Below are positions 45,382-56,249 of a DNA stretch of 64,000 nucleotides, one piece after another. A program made the translations under genes and the position numbers. The DNA lies in contig NZ_JAUSSF010000002.1 in the NCBI RefSeq assembly GCF_030812195.1, positions 186,001-250,000 on the forward strand. Reading direction: 5' to 3'. The notes beneath the pieces are model-generated. The model ran no database searches and was not told the origin of the DNA. It worked only from the letters and a program-made list of their open reading frames with translations. This DNA is from Chryseobacterium lathyri (GTDB lineage: Bacteria > Bacteroidota > Bacteroidia > Flavobacteriales > Weeksellaceae). The stretch's first letter is position 1; every line of letters begins with the position of its first letter.

Positions 45382-46155
45382 ATGAAATCTATTCTATTTT
45401 CAAAGAATCGCCTTTTTCAGGCCGCACTATTTTTAACCTTTTTATTCCAATCCGGCCATACGCAGGCGCAAAACAGGATCTATGCCCATGATCAGCTCTC
45501 CAATGTGTATGGAGTATGCCTGGGCTGTGCCGTACAGAATCCTTTAAATGCCCTTGGAGACAACGAAGACAACTATTCTACCATGGTTATGGGTACGGTT
45601 TTACTGGGAGGCGTTGAACAGACCCTGAGATTCCCTGAAGTGAGGCTCAACACTAAATTGGTTATCGGTATCGGTACTAATAACATTCCTCTGACTGTTC
45701 AGCTCTTAAGCGGCGTATATATAGAAACACTAAGCGGAACAACAGCCAATAACGACAGTCAAATGGTAACCGGGAACTTGCTGAAGCTTTCAGACAATCC
45801 TGCCAGAGCAACTATTGAATTTGTTCCTGTCAGCTCATATGACGCAGTTAAAATAAGACTGAGTGGTGGTGTACTGAGTCTGGGTGGCGGATTCAGAGTG
45901 TATTATGCATACCAGGATCCTCTGGCCACCATTATGGCTTACAGCAAAGCCGGACAGATTACTCTGGATGGTACTGTGCCATTAGAAGGGTCTGAAGTTA
46001 TCCTAAGAAATACTTCCGGGAAAGAAGTACACCGGTCTACCCTTCGCTCCAAAACCTTTGAATTGTCTTCTCCACAGCCTGAAGGAATCTATATTCTGAC
46101 CATAGAGACGAAAGACAAGAAGACTTATTCGCGTAAGATCAGAATCAATAATTAA
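45382..46155 (+). CDS. Secreted protein with T9SS C-terminal sorting domain
   Basis: A 257-residue protein with signal peptide (FLTFLFQSGHTQAQ), then a beta-rich domain (about 30-180; IYAHDQLSNVYGVCLGCAVQNPLNALGDNEDNYS), similar to adhesion-like domains repeated in large flavobacterial surface proteins. The last 75 residues (GQITLDGTVPLEGSEVILRN to TYSRKIRINN) form a type A T9SS sorting domain. It is likely released or attached to the cell surface. It is monocistronic, with a promoter and a strong terminator. Confidence 0.85.
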   Translation: MKSILFSKNRLFQAALFLTFLFQSGHTQAQNRIYAHDQLSNVYGVCLGCAVQNPLNALGDNEDNYSTMVMGTVLLGGVEQTLRFPEVRLNTKLVIGIGTNNIPLTVQLLSGVYIETLSGTTANNDSQMVTGNLLKLSDNPARATIEFVPVSSYDAVKIRLSGGVLSLGGGFRVYYAYQDPLATIMAYSKAGQITLDGTVPLEGSEVILRNTSGKEVHRSTLRSKTFELSSPQPEGIYILTIETKDKKTYSRKIRINN

Positions 46156-46167
46156 ATAATAAGACAT

Positions 46168-46210
46168 AAAAGAGATTTGGGCAGGCTAAAAGCCTGCCCA
46201 AATCTCTTTT
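46168..46210 (+). terminator. Strong terminator, 19-pair stem
   Basis: AAAAGAGATTTGGGCAGGC (46168-46186) and its exact complement (46192-46210) form a 19-pair stem with a 5-base loop. It ends the T9SS-sorted protein gene and is nearly symmetrical. Confidence 0.92.
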
Positions 46211-46230
46211 ACTACTGTTTTAAAACTAAA

Positions 46231-46260
46231 AACCCGGCGGCCCAAGTGGGCCGCCGGGTT
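46231..46260 (-). terminator. GC-rich terminator of the cobalamin operon
   Basis: AACCCGGCGGCCC (46231-46243) and GGGCCGCCGGGTT (46248-46260) pair perfectly over 13 bases with a 4-base loop. On the minus strand the stem is followed by TTTTTAGTTTT. It ends the convergent btuB operon 25 bases after the last stop. Confidence 0.92.
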
Positions 46261-46285
46261 CATTGAAATATATAGACTGTGATGG

Positions 46286-48574
46286 TTATTTTTTGATCAG
46301 CTTTTGCTGGTATACTGCTTTATCGGTTACAGCCTTTAGAATATATACTCCGTTTGGAAGCATGCTTACATTAATCTGACCGTTGTTAACTTGTGTATTC
46401 ACCAGTTTTCCCGAAGCATCATAAACAGAAACCTCTAGGATTTTCTCCTGAGTTTTGATAATCAAAATATCTGTTACCGGATTCGGATAAATACTAAATT
46501 CAATTTTCTTCACTTCTGTCGTAGCCAAAGTAGAAGTTGTACTGTTGACAGTAAGCACTTTTTCTACTACTTTTCCATTTGAATTAAAACTGATCTTAAT
46601 ATCCGCCGTTCCTGGAGCAACCGGAGTTAGAACCAATTCGTCATTAGCATTAATCACTGCAGAAACTGCGGCAGGATTTGAGTTTGACTTAATTGATTTT
46701 ACAATAGCAGCTGAAAGATTATCTTCATCAGAAACAATCGTTTTCAGGTCAATTACAGATGTATTGTTTACATTAACCTGTGACGGGAGAGTACTGCTTA
46801 TAGCAGGAAGTGTATTGTCAGGGAATACTGCCATAGCCGGGAACCAATAATAGTCATTAAGTGTCTTTGTATTGGTAATGGCTCCGTTAACATTAATAGT
46901 ATGGATCCAGTTTTTCTGGTAATGCGCGCCAAAACCACTTTCAGTGGTATTCAGAATCAATTCATCAGTGGTTGGATTCACACGAAGCCCAGCTCCATAA
47001 GGTATCTGTTTATAAGTACCTGTCTGACCGGGAATCGTTGCAAAATTTTCATTGAATGTCTTTGTCGTAACATCAAACTTTACAATCTGTGTTCCTGAAA
47101 CGAAACTGTTAACTGAATTGATCCAGTATAAAACATTCTGCTTACTGCTCGCTGAAAAGCTTCCTGCGTTCCATGCCCCCCAAGATCCTAAATACTTAGT
47201 GGTAGGAATAGTATATGAAGTGGTAACAAAAGTAGTGGGATGAATATTCACCACTTTCTGATCCTGGATCGCCCAGATACTTCCGTCTTTCGCCTGAACA
47301 ATAGAATGGAAAGATCCCGGGATCGTATGGATCAGGGTATCCGTTGCAGGGTCAATGACTAAAATCCCTGCAGACTGCTTCACGGCAAATACATATTTAG
47401 AAGAACGGATCATGTTTCCGATCTGACCTGCATATTGCCCTCCACCGCCTGTCCCGGCTATTGCGCTTCCAACTTGCAAATTGGCAATATCAAATACATA
47501 AACTCCGTTAGATGCTCCGATGTATCCTTTATTTTCGTTTACCCCAACAAATGATCTTCCGTCACCGCCTCCGATATTGTTAAATCCTGCAATTTTCTGC
47601 ATTGTATGTGCATTGGCTACCACAAGCCTTCCTCCTGGAGTATACTGAGTATCACCACCGTCTGCAGCCTGTTTTGAGATAAAATAGAATTTATCTCCGT
47701 AGATTGTTCCGTATTGCGTTGTAGCGCCAAAGGCTTGGTTATTATTCGCATTGCTGTAGACACGGTAATTGACCTGCCCATTATTGTCAATGAAATTCAC
47801 AGAACCGTTGGTATGTCCAAACCATTCTTCATTCACTATAAAGAAGCCGTCAGTAAAATTGGTAGAAGCAACAGAAGCAGCATAAGCAGATACCGGCGTC
47901 AACGTTGAAGAAATAGGAAAATAAGCCAGCCCAGGATTAAAATTCCATACATCCCATGATCCGTTCTGAAGCACACGGGACGAAGCACCTACCCCTGAAT
48001 ATCCGAAATCAGCATCCGCAGGATCTTTTACCCAATAGGACCAGTAGCTGTTGTACCATCCCGATCCCCAATGATCCCCGGCATCTGCAGCAGTAAAATC
48101 ATCGAAATCATACGCACCTGTATTTACAATACCATTTACAGGGTAAAGAGGATAGGTTGTATTCCCGTTTTTATAAAGTGCATTGGTATTTTGTCCGTTA
48201 AGGTCAAAACCCATTCCTCCGATGGCTGTCCCGAATTGTGTTCCCGGATAAAACAATGTGAAAAATCTGTGATCAGCCTTTGCAATGGCTTTCATCATAT
48301 CTTCTCCGGTAGCGCTTCCGTTCCATCTGAATCCCCATACCAAAGCATCAGGGTTTTTGCTGTCATTCCACTGTACCACGAAAGCGGCTTGATTTGTACC
48401 GCTACCTACCCAATACTGAATATCAGAAAAACTAATATTCGTGGTTACTGTAGCATTCAGCTGAGCACTGCCTGCCCCCTGAATGTCATTTCTAGGTACA
48501 CCCTGTACTTTTATCTGTGCATTCGTAAAGAACGCCAACAGAAACAGTACGGTAAAAAGGTAAAACTTTTTCAT
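46286..48574 (-). CDS. Surface beta-propeller protein with T9SS sorting domain, cobalamin locus
   Basis: A 762-residue protein with a signal peptide. Residues about 45-200 contain YWVGSGTNQAAFVVQWND and ALVWGFRWNGSATGEDMMKA, a domain recurring in surface proteins of B12 loci. Residues 220-590 form a DUF5074-like beta-propeller with short DxxT/VxD repeats (GILVIDPATDTLIHTIPGS). A bacterial Ig-like region (about 595-680) and a type A T9SS sorting domain (ending VYQQKLIKK) follow. It probably helps capture corrinoids at the surface; that comes from the operon, not from biochemistry. Confidence 0.8.
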   Translation of the reverse strand: MKKFYLFTVLFLLAFFTNAQIKVQGVPRNDIQGAGSAQLNATVTTNISFSDIQYWVGSGTNQAAFVVQWNDSKNPDALVWGFRWNGSATGEDMMKAIAKADHRFFTLFYPGTQFGTAIGGMGFDLNGQNTNALYKNGNTTYPLYPVNGIVNTGAYDFDDFTAADAGDHWGSGWYNSYWSYWVKDPADADFGYSGVGASSRVLQNGSWDVWNFNPGLAYFPISSTLTPVSAYAASVASTNFTDGFFIVNEEWFGHTNGSVNFIDNNGQVNYRVYSNANNNQAFGATTQYGTIYGDKFYFISKQAADGGDTQYTPGGRLVVANAHTMQKIAGFNNIGGGDGRSFVGVNENKGYIGASNGVYVFDIANLQVGSAIAGTGGGGQYAGQIGNMIRSSKYVFAVKQSAGILVIDPATDTLIHTIPGSFHSIVQAKDGSIWAIQDQKVVNIHPTTFVTTSYTIPTTKYLGSWGAWNAGSFSASSKQNVLYWINSVNSFVSGTQIVKFDVTTKTFNENFATIPGQTGTYKQIPYGAGLRVNPTTDELILNTTESGFGAHYQKNWIHTINVNGAITNTKTLNDYYWFPAMAVFPDNTLPAISSTLPSQVNVNNTSVIDLKTIVSDEDNLSAAIVKSIKSNSNPAAVSAVINANDELVLTPVAPGTADIKISFNSNGKVVEKVLTVNSTTSTLATTEVKKIEFSIYPNPVTDILIIKTQEKILEVSVYDASGKLVNTQVNNGQINVSMLPNGVYILKAVTDKAVYQQKLIKK

Positions 48575-48616
48575 TTTTAAATTATTATATGTATTAAATT
48601 CTATAGTCTATAATTA

Positions 48617-49825
48617 TTAATTAAGATGCAGATCATAGGCCCCTGCTACTTCTGTGGATACTTCCCCGAGCCATCCGGCCTCCTGATTGATTCCCGTATA
48701 GACCTTAATAAAATCTATACCCGGGAGTTTTACATACTTCCCGTTTTTATCTACTGCCCAGGAAATGTCTATGTTTGAAGCTTCATCATTATTCGGAGCA
48801 TTGTCTGCATACCCGTACTCATAAGATGTTCCTACCCAATATGCCCCCGTTCCGCTCTGGTCGTAAAAATTATCCTTAAGTCTGGTTCCAGCCAAGCTGT
48901 AAGAGGCATTCGTAAGCCATAAAGGATAATAGCTTTGGGTATGGAAGGTATTTTTAGTTTTAAATCCTGAATTCCCATTAATATCCTGCCATTTGATGTA
49001 CTCCACATCAGTCTGCCAAAACTCACTTCCCGGAACGGGGGACTTATTTTCATTGGGTTTGAAATATGTTATACTGTAATTTTTAATGGTTGAATTTTTA
49101 AAATATTCACTGCCGGCAATTTCGTACCATTCATCTTCATCGGGTTTGCCATTTTTATTTTTGTCATAGCCAACCATTATAATTCCGGGTTCACAAGATC
49201 CCGATCTGGTTGTGCTGGCATTATTTCCCCAAAATGCATTGCCCAAAACTTTGAAATCCTTTCCCTCAAGATTGGGAACTGTATGATCAAAGCCGAAAGC
49301 AACATAGCCTCCAAAGCCACCAAGCGTGATCATGGCAGAATTTCCGCCTATCAGTGATTCCTTTGCTCTCTGGAGCATATCTGCTTCTGTATTTCCGGTA
49401 ACATATTCCGGGACCTCATTCGTAAACTGGCCAACAGCAGGACGGAACTCAAAAACATCTGAAATGTATTTGCTGTAAGGGGTAAGTTCTTTATTGACAA
49501 TGATCGTTGACTTATAGGTCTTCACCGCTCCTTTTACCTCTACTTTCAAGGTCAAAGGATACGTTTTTACAAGAGGACTTACAAAATCCAGCTGCGGATG
49601 GTCTGAAATAATGGAATCGCCGATACTCCAGGTCAGCTTCCCTTCAATTTTGGGATCTATGTTCAAGAGCTTAAGTCTGTCTATGGTATAGGATTCTTTA
49701 AGAGCTTCCGCAGGAAAAGTCACTTCCTCCAATACTTCTTCCCTGTCATTTTTACAGGCTGCCGTTCCCAAAAGAACAGAAGATAGAAGCATGGTCTTTA
49801 AAATATGTTTAGTTTTTCTTTCCAT
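48617..49825 (-). CDS. Surface lipoprotein of the cobalamin locus
   Basis: A 402-residue protein with lipobox VLLGTAACKNDREE (Cys24). The D/E residues soon after the Cys resemble the surface-export signal of Bacteroidota lipoproteins. An N-terminal PKD/Ig-like region (about 35-120) precedes a domain containing GGNSAMITLGGFGGYVAFGFDH and GNAFWGNNASTTRSGSCEPGIIMVGYDKNKNGKPDEDEWYEI, split here only by wording. It has a calcium-like acidic loop (DKNKNGKPDEDE). It lies between the propeller lipoprotein (11 bases) and the T9SS protein (42 bases). B12 binding is plausible but unproven. Confidence 0.78.
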   Translation of the reverse strand: MERKTKHILKTMLLSSVLLGTAACKNDREEVLEEVTFPAEALKESYTIDRLKLLNIDPKIEGKLTWSIGDSIISDHPQLDFVSPLVKTYPLTLKVEVKGAVKTYKSTIIVNKELTPYSKYISDVFEFRPAVGQFTNEVPEYVTGNTEADMLQRAKESLIGGNSAMITLGGFGGYVAFGFDHTVPNLEGKDFKVLGNAFWGNNASTTRSGSCEPGIIMVGYDKNKNGKPDEDEWYEIAGSEYFKNSTIKNYSITYFKPNENKSPVPGSEFWQTDVEYIKWQDINGNSGFKTKNTFHTQSYYPLWLTNASYSLAGTRLKDNFYDQSGTGAYWVGTSYEYGYADNAPNNDEASNIDISWAVDKNGKYVKLPGIDFIKVYTGINQEAGWLGEVSTEVAGAYDLHLN

Positions 49826-49836
49826 TTTTTATCTGA

Positions 49837-50970
49837 TTATTTATATAAAAAAGCAAAATGAGCAGGGATATTCCCGCCTTCTGTTTTCCACTTGAATTTT
49901 CCGCCCTTATCGAAACAGTATACATATCCGGTAGTCACGTAGTTTTTCGCATCCGTTAAATAGATATCTTCCGTATAAGGATTTACTGCAATTCCGTAAG
50001 GAGCTTTGATCTCATCCACATACTGCTGGTCAATAATTTTATTAGCAATAATCTGTTCCGTCTTTACATCGATAATCCCAAAGGTCTTGACATAGGTATG
50101 CGTATTGTAATTAAATTCATTTCCATAATAGTACAGCTTGTCATTCACAATCGTCATTCCGCTGACAGCGACGTGAAAGTTTTTTTTCACTGTTCCGGTA
50201 GTGGCATCTACAAGGAAAAGGCTGGATGGAATGTTGTAGTAATCCCCTCTGGAGCTCACATATAAATCTCCGTAATTGTCTTTTTTAATACGATGAAGAT
50301 TAATAGCTACGTCAATTTTCTTGGTTTGAGTAAAGCTATTCAGATCAATGACGGAAACAGTTTTGTCATAATCCGGGAACCTATATCCCCCGGAATTGGC
50401 CACAAAAAGCTGATCGCCCATAATTTCTATTTCTTCCGGCTGATACCCTACTACAACCTGTCTTTCGATGCTCAGTGATGTCGTATCAATTTCAACTACT
50501 TTTCCCGGTGGAGAGTTCGGATTCAGTTCAACAGGACCTGCGTAGCTGCTGGCATAAACTTTATTGCCTTTAAATGCCAGATAACGGCAGTTCTGCAGCT
50601 GTATGGTTTTGATCCGTTTGGCTGTTTTCGCTTCCAGTACTTCAATTTTATTGGAAACATTCACCACCACATACATTTTGTTCCCGTAAATCATGATATG
50701 ATTTCCTACATCGCCCAGCTCTTTTACCACAGAAGGATTGGTTTCTCCGTAAATATTTTTGCGGTACGTTCCTGTAGCATAATCGAAATAATCGAGCGTA
50801 CATTTATTGCTCCCCATATTTCCTTCGTTCAGAAGATAAAAACCTTTAATAGGCAGATCTTCCCCGGTACTTACCTCTTTTGTCTCCGAAGGGACCACAT
50901 TGTCATCTGTCCGGCACGAGAACAGAAATAAAAGAGTAAAAGCCAGCAGGCAAAAGTTTAGTTTTTTCAT
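49837..50970 (-). CDS. BtuG-like beta-propeller lipoprotein
   Basis: A 377-residue protein with lipobox LLFLFSCRTDDN (Cys19). The mature part is a seven-bladed YncE/DUF5074-type propeller (GFYLLNEGNMGSNKCTLDYF, MYGNKMYVVVNVSNKIEVLE, EIEIMGDQLFVANSGGYRF). In Bacteroides the lipoprotein BtuG has this architecture, binds B12 with very high affinity and sits on BtuB. The gene here overlaps btuB by 4 bases and lies behind a B12 riboswitch, so the same role is likely. Confidence 0.82.
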   Translation of the reverse strand: MKKLNFCLLAFTLLFLFSCRTDDNVVPSETKEVSTGEDLPIKGFYLLNEGNMGSNKCTLDYFDYATGTYRKNIYGETNPSVVKELGDVGNHIMIYGNKMYVVVNVSNKIEVLEAKTAKRIKTIQLQNCRYLAFKGNKVYASSYAGPVELNPNSPPGKVVEIDTTSLSIERQVVVGYQPEEIEIMGDQLFVANSGGYRFPDYDKTVSVIDLNSFTQTKKIDVAINLHRIKKDNYGDLYVSSRGDYYNIPSSLFLVDATTGTVKKNFHVAVSGMTIVNDKLYYYGNEFNYNTHTYVKTFGIIDVKTEQIIANKIIDQQYVDEIKAPYGIAVNPYTEDIYLTDAKNYVTTGYVYCFDKGGKFKWKTEGGNIPAHFAFLYK

Positions 50971-52997
50971 AAGGTAAAGCTTACAATAAGTTTAAAGTTT
51001 CTTCCGGGCATCGGATAGTTCCTTACCACGTCATAGTATTGATTAAGGACGTTATTGACCTCAAAACCGGCTTTAATCTGATGAGAATGCCAGTTGAATT
51101 TTTTCTGAACGGATAAATCATGCGTGTACCATGGCTGAAGATAATTGGCTTTGATATTATTCAGCTGGGCATCATAACGCTCTCCCGTGTACATAAAACT
51201 GTAATTGAAACTCCAGTCTTTATAGTCTGTCATCATGGTAAAAGTCGCGGTATGCCATGGCACATAGGAGATCTGGTCTCCGTAATAGTCGTCACTTTTA
51301 TCAGTATAGTCTCCGGCACGCTGATAGGTATAGCTTACCAAAGGTTTCAGTTTCACTTTATGAATGTCAAATTCAGCCTGAACATTCACGTCTGCCCCGA
51401 TGATTTTTACTTCTCCCAAATTCACCATCATCCACCTGAAGAGATTGGTGGTAGGAACAGCGATAATTTTGTTTTCTACTTCATTATAATAGCCATCCAC
51501 TTTCACATAGATTCCTTTAAAAACTTTATGATCATAGAGTTTCTGGTAGGTAAAACCTGCATCGTACTGATTCGTGTATTCGGGTTTCAACATGATATTC
51601 CCGATCATAGTGTAATACAGATCATTGAAAGTAGGCATTCTGAACACTCTTTTGTAGAAAGCCCTTACGGTAAGATCTTTGGATTCAAAGGGTTGATAAC
51701 TAAGAAAAGCAGAAGGTGTCCATTCGGTTTTATCGGGAGACTTTGCATTCATTTTCACTTCTTCATGCACAAAAGTTCCCAGAATGCTTCCTAAAAATTT
51801 GAACCGGTTCCACTGATAGGTCGTAGCAAAAGAAACGAGCGAAGTATATCGGGTAGGATATGAAAAATCCCTCAGGCTGGCATCCAGATTATTATACTGA
51901 AAGTCAAAGCTTGCACTTATATCCCAGTTCTGATTAACAGAATACATATTGGAATTCGAAAAATAGAGTTCTCTCTGAACATAAGAATTATCTATCGGAA
52001 GAACGGTTGTAGCTACATTTACTGTATCTAAAAACCGGGTGTAGTCATAAGCAAATTTAGCTTTGAACTGCGTTTCGAATTTTGGAAACAGCTTTTTACG
52101 GAAACTGGCCTGAACAAAATAGTTTTCATCCAGCATCTGCTGCCCCTTAGGCTTGAAATTATTGTTAACAATGGCCGTAGGAACTCCACGATCGGAAATA
52201 TAGCCATAACCGCGTACGCTCCAGCTTCCATCATTAATGGTCCCATTTAAAGCAGTTTCAAAACGTTTCGCACGGATATAGGAATCATATCTTCTGGCAA
52301 TGGTATCATTGGCAACAGATCCGTCAGAATTTTTCTTTTCGTATTTAAATTTATACAAGCCGTCACTCTGCACAAATTCCGAGCTGAAACTTGCCGAAAC
52401 TCTGTCTGAAAGCTTCTGCTCCAGACGGAAGGAAGGGTTAAACAAACTGATAGAGCCTAATTTCAGCTTCAGCATTAAGTTGGTCTTCTGATTTCCTTTA
52501 AAAACAGGTGTTTTAGGCTGAAGGTAAATCGACCCGGAAGATCCGAAATCCTTTGCCGGCTGAAAAATTTCACTTTTCTGCCCGTTATATAAAGAAATGG
52601 CTTCAAGATCATCCAGTGAAAACTTTCCGAGATCCACGATTCCGTTCTGAACATTTCCCAGCTGGATACCGTCATAGAAAACACCTACATGCTGGCTTCC
52701 CATACTCCGGATATTTACCGTTTTCAGACCGCCCATCCCGCCATAGTCTTTGATCTGAACTCCTGAAAAATACCGTAAAGCATCAGCCACCGACTGACTG
52801 TTCAGCCTTTCAAGCTGTTCCCCGGAAAGTACCTGTGCGGGAAGAATTTCTTTAAAATCTTTTTTGTAAAGCTGGATAGGAAGAATGGTTTTCTCCCTGA
52901 TGGTGTCTCCGGATTGTGAGAATATAAGTTGAGATGCTGCCACAAATAATATGATAACACCTTTTTTAAACTGTGAAGCAGTACATTTTCTGACCAT
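50967..52997 (-). CDS. btuB: TonB-dependent cobalamin receptor
   Basis: Outer-membrane receptor importing vitamin B12 with TonB energy. The 676-residue protein has a signal peptide (FVAASQLIFS), a plug domain (about 45-165; LNSQSVADALRYFSGVQIKDYGGMGGLKTVNIRSMGSQ) and a 22-strand barrel ending with an aromatic-hydrophobic tail (LIVSFTL). It lacks the carboxypeptidase-like domain of SusC-type receptors. A cobalamin riboswitch directly upstream supports the B12 assignment. First gene of the four-gene operon. Confidence 0.9.
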   Translation of the reverse strand: MVRKCTASQFKKGVIILFVAASQLIFSQSGDTIREKTILPIQLYKKDFKEILPAQVLSGEQLERLNSQSVADALRYFSGVQIKDYGGMGGLKTVNIRSMGSQHVGVFYDGIQLGNVQNGIVDLGKFSLDDLEAISLYNGQKSEIFQPAKDFGSSGSIYLQPKTPVFKGNQKTNLMLKLKLGSISLFNPSFRLEQKLSDRVSASFSSEFVQSDGLYKFKYEKKNSDGSVANDTIARRYDSYIRAKRFETALNGTINDGSWSVRGYGYISDRGVPTAIVNNNFKPKGQQMLDENYFVQASFRKKLFPKFETQFKAKFAYDYTRFLDTVNVATTVLPIDNSYVQRELYFSNSNMYSVNQNWDISASFDFQYNNLDASLRDFSYPTRYTSLVSFATTYQWNRFKFLGSILGTFVHEEVKMNAKSPDKTEWTPSAFLSYQPFESKDLTVRAFYKRVFRMPTFNDLYYTMIGNIMLKPEYTNQYDAGFTYQKLYDHKVFKGIYVKVDGYYNEVENKIIAVPTTNLFRWMMVNLGEVKIIGADVNVQAEFDIHKVKLKPLVSYTYQRAGDYTDKSDDYYGDQISYVPWHTATFTMMTDYKDWSFNYSFMYTGERYDAQLNNIKANYLQPWYTHDLSVQKKFNWHSHQIKAGFEVNNVLNQYYDVVRNYPMPGRNFKLIVSFTL

Positions 52998-53121
52998 TAG
53001 CTCATTGAGAATAATGCTGACGCTAATGGATATAAGATAGCAAAGATAAAGCGCAGCTGTTACTGCACAGAATCATTGTTGTCCTAAGCTTTATTCCACG
53101 AAAGCATCAAACGTTTATCTT

Positions 53122-53284
53122 CTGGCAGGTCTTCTGACTTACTCCGTTTTTGAAATCCTTCCCATTAAAAAACAGTGGATATACTCTTCAAAAACTTTGA
53201 TGTGGAGCTTACAGCAGCGGGTCTGTCCCGGATTTTCACCGGATTCCCTTTTAAGTGCTTTTTACAGCGCACCAGATTGCGGCA
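53122..53284 (-). ncRNA. Cobalamin riboswitch
   Basis: On the minus strand the element opens near 53284 (CCGCAATCTGGTGCGC). It holds GGGAATCCGGTGAAAATCC and GACAGACCCGCTGCTGTAAGC-like core segments (split at about 53205-53250) and ends with the B12 box AGTCAGAAGACCTGCC (53139-53124). These are the diagnostic conserved parts of the class. It lies about 125 bases before btuB and should switch the operon off when adenosyl- or methylcobalamin is present. Confidence 0.95.
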
Positions 53285-53316
53285 AAGATAGAAAATAATT
53301 AATATATGCAATACAA
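53283..53316 (-). promoter_or_regulatory. Promoter of the riboswitch-btuB operon
   Basis: On the minus strand TTG (53316-53314), a 23-base spacer and TATCTTTG (53290-53283) fit the consensus at its long limit. Transcription would begin almost at the first base of the riboswitch. The 432-base gap between btuB and the next gene holds only this and the aptamer. Confidence 0.6.
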
Positions 53317-53429: not shown

Positions 53430-54380
53430 TTAAATTCCAAAATTGATAAATACACTGAATCTGGATTTCGCTTCAATGTCGCCGCCCGCAAGATTGGAAT
53501 AGGCAGGCAGCATGACTTCACCTCCTAAACTGAACTTTTTATACGAAGCCTCGAACCCGAGTTTTCCATATAAAGCACTTCCGGCTGTTTTAGGCAATAC
53601 CTCGTCAAACTGTTTGTTTTTATCATAGACTTCACCCTGAACTCCGGCTTTGGCAGAGAAAATGGTCTTTCCGTTTTCTGCAAGCTGATAAAACCCTGTT
53701 GCAGCATAATTCCACTGGTTCCCGAAACGGTAATTCTTTTTATTTTCGGTTTTTACGGTATAATCTGTATTAATCAGTACAGCCAGCTTATTCTTTTGAA
53801 ACTTATAGTTCAAAGCGGCCTGATAATCCCAGCTTCCCGTTCCCAGTTGAAAACTTGGATTGACGCCGGAAGCTCCTTTTTCATCAAATTTCCCCAAAGG
53901 AATCTTCACACCCAAACCTCCGTTAAGCTGATGAAAATTATCCTTGGAACTGATGATCCGGTAAATTCCCATCAGGTTCACGTCTCCGATTCCATCGATT
54001 TTAATATCGCCCTGCATTGTTCTCTTCTCATGAAAATGAAATGGCAGGCTGGCGTATACACTCAGATTTTGTGTCAATGGAATTTTACCCCAAACCTGCA
54101 GGGTATTGAAGTACTGGTCCTGCGTGAGGTCTTTCACAAAAAGGTTTTCTTTGGCTTTATAATGCTGGGCAAAATATTTGATCCCGACAAACTGCGGATT
54201 CAGCAAAGACTCAAAACCGGAAGATCCGTTTCCTGCTGCACAACCGCACGCATCACAGTCATCCAGTACAATTCTGCTAACATCATCTGCAATGTAAATA
54301 CTGTCGTTAATTGTTTCAGCATGGCATGCAAATGATAGTGCCAAGCTGAGGATAAAGATTATTTTATTCATGTTCATCAT
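53430..54380 (-). CDS. Outer-membrane barrel protein linked to mbnP-mbnH
   Basis: About 316 residues with a signal peptide (NKIIFILSLALSFACHAE). A short cysteine-rich segment (LDDCDACGCAAGNGSSG) follows near residue 40, perhaps metal-binding. The rest is a transporter-like beta-barrel (FVGIKYFAQHYKAKENLFV, LTQNLSVYASLPFHF, GIGDVNLMGIYRI). The frame could start at a GTG at 54386 overlapping mbnH by 4 bases; ATG codons at 54380, 54377 and 54371 are more likely. It is third in the mbnP-mbnH operon. Confidence 0.8.
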   Translation of the reverse strand: MMNMNKIIFILSLALSFACHAETINDSIYIADDVSRIVLDDCDACGCAAGNGSSGFESLLNPQFVGIKYFAQHYKAKENLFVKDLTQDQYFNTLQVWGKIPLTQNLSVYASLPFHFHEKRTMQGDIKIDGIGDVNLMGIYRIISSKDNFHQLNGGLGVKIPLGKFDEKGASGVNPSFQLGTGSWDYQAALNYKFQKNKLAVLINTDYTVKTENKKNYRFGNQWNYAATGFYQLAENGKTIFSAKAGVQGEVYDKNKQFDEVLPKTAGSALYGKLGFEASYKKFSLGGEVMLPAYSNLAGGDIEAKSRFSVFINFGI

Positions 54381-54382
54381 GA

Positions 54383-55429
54383 TCACTCTGCAAATTTTGG
54401 ATTAGAAATAAAGTTTTTATCAGATAAGGTTTTCAAAAAGGCGATAATCAGCTGCTTTTCTTGAGTGTTCATCGCTATTCCGACATGTCCGTTTTGTTTC
54501 AGCTGTGAATCAAGATTGGGGTTATCCTCCACATTATCTGAATAGAAATTAAGGACTGCTTCCAGTGTGTAAAATCTCCCATCATGCATATAAGGTGCGG
54601 TATGTTCTACATTTCTCAGGCTAGGCACACGGAATTTCATCCAGTCATTCTGATCAAGGGTCACGCGATGACGCCCCGCATCTTTGAACTGGGTATTGTA
54701 ATACATTCCTGTATTCCTGAAACTCTCATCGGTAAATAATTCTCCACTGTGGCAGGAAGCACATTTCTGATCAAAAAGAGCTAATCCCTGAGATTCCTCG
54801 GAAGTGAAGTTTTCTTTTTCCTGTTTAACCCTGTCATATTTCGAATCTGCGGAAATCATGCTTACCATAAACTGCGACAGAGCCTTCAATATCCTTTCAC
54901 CAGTTATATTTTCATCACCATAAGCTGCCATGAAGAGTTTTTTATACCTCTGATCATTCTTTAATTTAGAGATCACCTCGGGCATGGAACTGTCCATTTC
55001 ATTGGCATCCGTGATCGGTATGATCGGCTGTTCGTTCAGATTATGGATCACACCGTCCCACATGTATCTTTTCAGGAATGCCATGTTTTGAATGGATGGT
55101 GCATTACGGATTCCTATTCTGTCGTCCACTCCATGGCTCACGGTATGGCCATGGTGCGTAAAAGCATTTTCCTGAATATGGCAGAAACCACATGATATGG
55201 TGTTATTTCGGGAAAGCCTGCCCTCATAAAATAAATTTCTTCCCAGCTCTACTCCGTTTTTTGTCACCGGATTACCGGATGCATCAAAAGTCATTTCAGG
55301 AAAGTACGATGGGAACCGTAAAGAATAAGCCTCATCTTTTTCCAATGGCTGCATTACCTCATCTGAACAGGAAGAACAGCTCAGAAAAGTAATGACCAGC
55401 AGCATTGTTTTTAATAAAATCCTAATCAT
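54383..55429 (-). CDS. mbnH: Di-heme cytochrome c peroxidase of the MbnH/MauG type
   Basis: A 348-residue exported protein (N-terminal lipobox-like CSSCSDE) with two haem c motifs, CGFCH (80-84) and CASCH (223-227). Conserved segments GRNLFYEGRLS, RNAPSIQNMAF and FRVPSLRNVEHTAPYMHDGR identify the bacterial di-haem peroxidase/MauG superfamily. MbnH in methanotrophs oxidises a tryptophan of MbnP to kynurenine, forming a copper site. The gene overlaps mbnP by 8 bases, so that pairing is the best assignment; an ordinary peroxidase cannot be excluded. Confidence 0.85.
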   Translation of the reverse strand: MIRILLKTMLLVITFLSCSSCSDEVMQPLEKDEAYSLRFPSYFPEMTFDASGNPVTKNGVELGRNLFYEGRLSRNNTISCGFCHIQENAFTHHGHTVSHGVDDRIGIRNAPSIQNMAFLKRYMWDGVIHNLNEQPIIPITDANEMDSSMPEVISKLKNDQRYKKLFMAAYGDENITGERILKALSQFMVSMISADSKYDRVKQEKENFTSEESQGLALFDQKCASCHSGELFTDESFRNTGMYYNTQFKDAGRHRVTLDQNDWMKFRVPSLRNVEHTAPYMHDGRFYTLEAVLNFYSDNVEDNPNLDSQLKQNGHVGIAMNTQEKQLIIAFLKTLSDKNFISNPKFAE

Positions 55430-56249
55430 TGTGAACGTGATCTACTTTAAACATCGCAGTAAGGTTATCCGTAACATCCACCAAATGCTGGCTTGAGCCC
55501 ATCATCATATTGTTTTCTGTAGTAAGGGAAAGCGTTTTGCTGCCACTTAGAAACTGATTAAGATCTGCAAGAATGTGGATGGAAGGTCTTATCTGAGCCG
55601 TTACTCTGGCGGTTGTCGGAAGATTCAACGTAATTTCCCGGTAAAGATCCGGAGTATTATTAGCCGTTACATTCCCCATGTTTCCCGTGTGATTCATGAA
55701 TTGCGTATCTGCTGCACTGCCCCCGTACTTCCCTTCCAGTTTTATAAAGACATAACCGGCTGCCCATGACCACGACATTCCTTTCTGTTTGGCTTTCGTC
55801 CAGAATTCTGCCTGCCCGTTTTGCCCCAACAGATAAGCCTTCTGACTGATTCCAAGTCCAAATCTTACTTTCTTGTAATTGTTTTTCGGAATTCCGTTCA
55901 GATCGAGATAAACAACTCCTGCAACGGCATCTGCCTGATCTACAATGAAAGCGCCTTTATCAGGATTATTTTCATTGTATTTAAATTCATTTCCGCTTTC
56001 GTCAATCAGTGTGATATTGCTGATGACATATTTTAAAGCGGAGAAATTATGTTTCTGTCCGGAAGCAGAAGTCTGTACAGTTTGATTCAGCACAATATTC
56101 CCCAGATTATTGAATCCGTTTTCAAATTTTATCTGAAGATTTCCGGTTGAAGTGTCCTGCGAATCGGTATCATCGCTGTTTCGGCATGATGATAAAGTGA
56201 GCACATTAAAGACAATAAAGAATAATGATAAAAATTTATAAATTTTCAT
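55422..56249 (-). CDS. mbnP: MbnP-family copper-binding lipoprotein
   Basis: A 275-residue protein with lipobox VLTLSSCRNSDDTDS (Cys22). The family pattern is visible: FSALKYVISNITLIDESGN near residue 69, LDLNGIPKNNYKKVRFGLGI near 115, and GMSWSWAAGYVFIKLEG (157-173), whose tryptophans include the one modified in characterised MbnP. Histidines cluster at the C-terminus (HVHND). It is the first gene of a three-gene overlapping operon with mbnH and a barrel protein. Copper binding is from family knowledge. Confidence 0.82.
   Translation of the reverse strand: MKIYKFLSLFFIVFNVLTLSSCRNSDDTDSQDTSTGNLQIKFENGFNNLGNIVLNQTVQTSASGQKHNFSALKYVISNITLIDESGNEFKYNENNPDKGAFIVDQADAVAGVVYLDLNGIPKNNYKKVRFGLGISQKAYLLGQNGQAEFWTKAKQKGMSWSWAAGYVFIKLEGKYGGSAADTQFMNHTGNMGNVTANNTPDLYREITLNLPTTARVTAQIRPSIHILADLNQFLSGSKTLSLTTENNMMMGSSQHLVDVTDNLTAMFKVDHVHND

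Follow-up and report, generated by a model that had tools for sequence, protein, structure and literature searches.

Surface capture of vitamin B12 in the Bacteroidota has so far been worked out in gut Bacteroides, where it relies on lipoproteins only. Corrinoid loci 1 and 2 of Bacteroides thetaiotaomicron are riboswitch-led operons that combine a cobalamin riboswitch with the transporter BtuB, its lid BtuG and the binders BtuH and BtuK (PMC6143338; PMC10404256; PMC8941943; PMC12751083). Of two closely related BtuK proteins, BtuK1 is a cobalamin binder whose affinity may be picomolar, and BtuK2 did not bind the vitamin (PMC12751083). All of these components have counterparts in the locus described here, which lies in a stretch of 64,000 nucleotides from Chryseobacterium lathyri (assembly GCF_030812195.1, contig NZ_JAUSSF010000002.1, positions 186,001 to 250,000), hereafter the window. 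The operon runs on the minus strand from the riboswitch through btuB, btuG, btuH and a btuK-like gene to a strong terminator, with the coordinates and gene order given in a preliminary description of this DNA made from the sequence alone, and the top PDB relatives of its four proteins are BtuB, BtuG, BtuH and BtuK1. The homology, the conserved gene order and the conserved contact residues lend good support to an operon for corrinoid capture under riboswitch control, one of whose propellers is predicted to be exported through the type IX secretion system (T9SS). We put at roughly 0.85 the probability that the operon scavenges corrinoids, with BtuH and an exported protein, composed of a BtuK-type propeller and a further N-terminal domain (ND), catching them for BtuB and BtuG.

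The first two proteins would form the transporter and its lid. The product of btuB (50967..52997; this and the following features are on the minus strand unless stated otherwise) has the Pfam plug and barrel of a TonB-dependent cobalamin transporter and is closest in PDB to BtuB1 (8blw_A, expectation value (E) 5e-128); its scores stay under the equivalog cut-offs for BtuB in NCBIfam, which is no surprise in so distant a clade. The btuG gene (49837..50970) overlaps btuB by 4 nt and encodes a DUF5074 beta-propeller lipoprotein (lipobox LFSC; 8blw_B, E 9.5e-39), the predicted lid of BtuB. Both had been named correctly in the preliminary description. The third protein, encoded by btuH (48617..49825), had been described as a further surface lipoprotein; it is a predicted lipoprotein, but not a nameless extra, as its C-terminal domain belongs to a known family of B12 binders, with matches to the H-domain of BtuG1 (8blw_B, E 2.5e-68) and to BtuH2 (7biz, E 5e-43). 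The B12-contacting residues of BtuH2 are Q333, N399, F401, H476, Y510, W511, W577 and L578 (PMC8941943), and all eight are present in the btuH product as Q133, N196, F198, H295, Y329, W330, W385 and L386, each kept in 77-81 of 81 sequences. The domain and the eight contacts are common to BtuH2, the BtuG1 H-domain and the btuH product, whose N-terminal part is shorter and has only a weak PKD_3 match.

The fourth protein (46286..48574) sets this operon apart. Profiles and a structural model divide it into a signal peptide, ND, a BtuK-type propeller, an immunoglobulin (Ig)-like domain and a T9SS sorting domain. The DUF5074 propeller (residues 242-585; 46820..47851; PF16819, E 6.7e-123) has as its best PDB match 9s6c, entitled 'B12 Binding protein - BtuK1' in the fold library, which ranks first both by sequence (phmmer, 3e-14) and by fold (Foldseek, 2.1e-16), while BtuK2 (4r5o) appears only at rank 20. 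A second BtuG was ruled out on the same grounds, since BtuK1 matches better in both respects; the preliminary description was right about a second propeller with a T9SS sorting domain, and this propeller is related to BtuK. DUF5074 proteins were found in the genome only as the products of genes 2 and 4, and the closest relatives of the fourth protein come from C. elymi (93%), C. lathyri (92%) and C. luteum (91%). A single-sequence search for BtuK1 homologues in Bacteroidales-type genomes gave distant matches only.

The fourth protein fits what is expected of a T9SS substrate. Its N-terminus is a hydrophobic signal that ends in NAQ and has no lipobox, its C-terminus is a type A sorting domain (residues 695-762; 46289..46492; TIGR04183, E 7.4e-15; PF18962), and the genome holds the SprA translocon together with 72 T9SS sorting domains. 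T9SS substrates are either attached to lipopolysaccharide or released, so the protein might instead act as a diffusible corrinoid carrier; we regard this as quite unlikely, as the type A class of sorting domain is usually tied to surface attachment and the cell would lose a free carrier to its neighbours. What is new here, judged from the predicted domains, is a BtuK-type propeller sent by the T9SS in place of a lipid anchor. Novelty had been claimed for T9SS delivery of a propeller in corrinoid capture, and it holds for the propeller and its fusion but not for the route, because a sorting domain of this class is also present in 229 of 824 proteins of the BtuJ family (DUF4465; PMC12751083). 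Our literature search returned no study of the flavobacterial operon and no paper joining flavobacteria with BtuG, or the T9SS with a corrinoid-binding propeller.

A locus from another family of the class (L133) points to how the fused protein may be related to lipoproteins. Behind its riboswitch come BtuB, BtuG and a BtuH that has three PKD domains, then a lipoprotein that matches the ND profile (L133:10373-11161, E 3.8e-54) and a DUF5074 lipoprotein, and no T9SS sorting domains were found in its genome. Both halves of gene 4 thus exist there as adjacent lipoproteins, while in the Flavobacteriales they are fused and T9SS-tailed; two such genomes with the fused form have 72 and 136 sorting domains.

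Conservation of the operon was followed in 80 loci collected through gene 4 from a species-representative collection (Chryseobacterium, Epilithonimonas, Soonwooa and Flavobacterium). The order btuB-btuG-btuH-btuK, which the preliminary description had proposed to look for in other Weeksellaceae, is kept, orientation included, in all 80. A riboswitch was called in 78 of the 79 loci having upstream DNA (71 by exact motif, six by Rfam and one, L051, by alignment); L027 has no upstream sequence, and the single locus without a call, L057, has a broken or misread btuB. Three more distant loci (L136, L162 and L163), with fourth proteins 51-71% identical, keep both the gene order and the riboswitch. 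Flavobacterium proteins are 70% (BtuH) and 68% (BtuK-like) identical to those of the window, compared with 53% for BtuB and 56% for BtuG, and within the fourth protein conservation peaks in the propeller (75%; ND, 71%). By homology the capture set is of a known kind, met here in another clade. A differently composed corrinoid operon stands behind a riboswitch in another family of the class (L137:3578-12195), with a DUF4465 (BtuJ-type) protein, BtuH, a lipoprotein matching Recep_L_domain, BtuG and BtuB.

Several points weigh against a capture operon with an exported binder. Corrinoid capture by its flavobacterial members is a prediction from the genes, and the 80 loci, having been recruited by gene 4, indicate that this gene travels with the operon rather than how frequent the operon is. 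Delivery is not strictly tied to the presence of a T9SS, since a BtuK-type lipoprotein with a PKD domain stands alone behind a riboswitch (L134) in a genome with 14 sorting domains. Identity between the propeller and BtuK1 is low, at about 23%, and, given the non-binding BtuK2, the DUF5074/BtuK fold alone is no proof of binding. The propeller could, like BtuK2, have lost corrinoid binding and serve as a scaffold or adaptor, or in vesicles, leaving capture to BtuH. Such a role has a parallel in BtuL, a non-binding protein also of the B. thetaiotaomicron corrinoid loci, which promotes vesicle release (PMC12751083), and it is compatible with one network cluster of Elizabethkingia vesicles that comprises a DUF5074 protein, a YncE family protein and a cell surface protein (PMC9431301), although these have not been matched to the operon. 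We consider it unlikely nonetheless, as the binder BtuK1 heads the sequence matches and the fold matches alike, well ahead of BtuK2, and as the propeller is the part of the protein that has changed least.

The most novel part of the fourth protein is ND, which by all profile searches is an undescribed domain and had been missed in the preliminary description. It spans about 180 residues (about 48-228; 47891..48433), has no Pfam match up to E 10, is absent from NCBIfam and has no significant PDB sequence match. It is strongly conserved: across 51 sequences about 50 positions never vary, many of them W, G or D. An independent sample placed ND in 6 of the family's 33 genera (49 of 197 genomes); across the phylum, 8 of 395 genomes had it. 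Besides the L133 lipoprotein, its relatives include tandem pairs in T9SS proteins of roughly 370 residues in other Chryseobacterium and a secreted protein of 311 residues in which it stands alone (L160:5652-6587); in the tandem copies, clear resemblance to ND is limited to its first part (E 9.6e-8 over 60 columns when profiles are compared). An Rfam-confirmed cobalamin riboswitch lies directly before the ND gene or heads its operon in every locus opened (L158, L159, L160, L161, L164 and L133). In two of these, from other Chryseobacterium, a DUF5074/BtuG-like propeller with a T9SS tail (L158:8024-9301; L164:6503-7783) stands behind a second riboswitch and is followed by a further tandem-ND gene. 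With only four such riboswitches in the whole genome that holds the window, the association is far beyond chance. Most probably, then, ND is a further module of this system that handles corrinoids.

What ND may do is suggested by its predicted fold. The N-terminal part of the full-length model was unusable (predicted local distance difference test (pLDDT) about 30), and a separate model of ND was therefore built from 51 sequences, not including the L133 lipoprotein, which gave a pLDDT of 79 and a predicted template modelling score (pTM) of 0.78. In a Foldseek search against PDB the first 13 matches were all transcobalamin, intrinsic factor or 3u7z, a DUF4430-like entry. The matches are weak (best E 0.068), and template modelling scores (TM-scores) against 5no0, 5np4 and 3u7z are 0.57-0.64 by the isolated domain but 0.30-0.37 by the length of ND; a transcobalamin-like fold is accordingly a lead, not a finding, and the matches, all from one fold family, count once. 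The coincidence in the modelled fold is noteworthy because the search carried no functional prior: DUF4430 is found in animal B12 binders (PMC4350170), and the best matches are to the beta domain of transcobalamin and intrinsic factor, compared with which ND is about twice as long, about 10% identical and without an alpha domain partner. By sequence, an assignment to DUF4430 was rejected (no match in Pfam or in the PDB profile search), as was one to BtuJ/DUF4465 (PF14717), for which neither ND nor its relatives gave a Pfam match while the same library recovered DUF4465 in L137. The standalone ND proteins of L160 and L133 weakly match the same part of NCBIfam SCO2322 (E 0.014 and 0.17), which may reflect a distant relation.

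We tentatively propose, with the odds somewhat against it, that ND is a bacterial corrinoid-binding domain of transcobalamin-beta-like fold, a movable module that would operate under B12 riboswitches alone, in T9SS tandems, as a lipoprotein or, with the BtuK propeller, in a two-site T9SS trap. A structural, docking or catalytic part linked to B12 uptake, for instance in corrinoid release or remodelling, is rather unlikely: the fold matches fall short of significance, DUF4430 was not found by sequence, and the many invariant charged residues (D, H, R and K) would also fit an enzyme or a docking face, but ND recurs alone or in tandem with riboswitches of its own and apart from BtuB and BtuH, which is expected of a stand-alone binder and not of a fixed subunit. 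Directly 3' of the riboswitch-led standalone ND gene in L160 is a gene for a 605-residue T9SS protein of no recognised family (L160:6699-8516), possibly another corrinoid protein.

Control by cobalamin would rest on an aptamer (53107..53291) that the preliminary description had recognised and that Rfam RF00174 matches over its full length (1-189) with 97.3 bits (E 4.9e-23; gathering score 31.5). The sequence and an alignment of 28 loci place a promoter -7 element, TATCTTTG (53283..53290), directly 5' of the aptamer; it is of the Bacteroidota TAnnTTTG promoter type. A sigma-70 promoter scan found no excess (17 sites against 18.7 in shuffles), which is what one expects of Bacteroidota promoters. 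Immediately 3' of the aptamer, an alignment of 23 loci shows a conserved hairpin, GCTTT-CGTGGAAT-AAAGC (53088..53105), followed by a candidate intrinsic terminator between aptamer and btuB (53041..53068), with a 7-bp stem and TTTATCTTTG. This second hairpin (53068-53051) has a T-rich tail, and its pairing is kept in relatives despite altered sequence (GTGCAG/CTGCGC in the window, GTACAA/TTGTAC in L051 and CCTGTTAT/ATAACGGG in Flavobacterium L047), so that premature termination at this site is the likely output of the riboswitch. The same output has been proposed for B. thetaiotaomicron (PMC12751083). At the other end, a 14-bp G+C-rich hairpin with a T tail (46230..46261) closes the transcription unit.

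Elsewhere in the genome, three proteins with a B12-binding domain indicate a likely B12 user and, together with SprA and the sorting domains, make both T9SS export and B12 use plausible. As had been noted, the window lacks an inner-membrane BtuC-type gene: searches of the genome placed no FecCD (BtuC-type) permease there, and BtuC and BtuF candidates were located outside it, with two FecCD copies on contig 1 (the window is on contig 2). Of the three cobalamin riboswitches besides that of the operon, one precedes metE (L089), one (C3 302442-302615) a second BtuB-like receptor and a BtuG-like propeller lipoprotein matched by no Pfam family (L088:1148-4064), and one of 110.7 bits (L087:1454-1748; C3:144453-144631) lies directly 5' of a gene for a hotdog thioesterase (4HBT), which is not a usual target. 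The operon is flanked on one side by a convergent plus-strand gene for a short protein with a T9SS sorting domain (45382-46155), with a 20-bp inverted repeat (46167-46211) between the two, and on the other by adjoining minus-strand genes for an MbnP-like copper-binding protein, an MbnH-like di-haem enzyme and an outer-membrane protein (53430-56249).

Taken together, when B12 is scarce the riboswitch would let transcription proceed into btuB-btuG-btuH-btuK, and when B12 is bound transcription would most likely halt at hairpin 53068-53051. BtuB and BtuG would form a lidded outer-membrane transporter, while the lipid-anchored BtuH and the T9SS-exported fourth protein, on the model of B. thetaiotaomicron, would catch corrinoids outside and hand them to it; corrinoid binding by the propeller and by ND, the surface location and the hand-over are what we infer for this system. 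The fourth protein would be a BtuK-type propeller to which ND, an Ig-like spacer and, replacing the lipid anchor, a T9SS sorting domain were added. In F. psychrophilum an unknown TonB-dependent transporter is preceded by a cobalamin riboswitch (PMC9723704); this pair is compatible with the operon but has not been matched to it. As to the preliminary description as a whole, the riboswitch-led capture operon stands, the third protein is now named, the fourth is placed with BtuK, and the claim of novelty is narrowed.

A capture toolkit similar to that of Bacteroides is conserved in Flavobacteriales (for example Chryseobacterium, here a soil-type bacterium, and Flavobacterium), where one component takes another way out of the cell and is fused to a domain, so far undescribed, that tracks B12 riboswitches between loci. 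If ND does bind corrinoids, the B12 binders would gain a further class, and bacteria perhaps an equivalent of the fold that animals have in transcobalamin. The homologous lipoprotein and T9SS systems form a pair for asking what the delivery route changes. Compared with the B. thetaiotaomicron loci, in which the accessory binders are all lipoproteins, ND is lacking and the gene order is different, the Chryseobacterium operon has no BtuJ. The BtuJ/DUF4465 family does resemble the fourth protein in its predicted role, its corrinoid binders being partly T9SS-delivered (PMC12751083), but it is a jelly-roll unrelated to the propeller. The nearest described protein remains BtuK1 (BT_1486; 9s6c), which shares the DUF5074 propeller and is a lipoprotein, whereas the fourth protein instead carries ND, an Ig-like domain and a T9SS tail.

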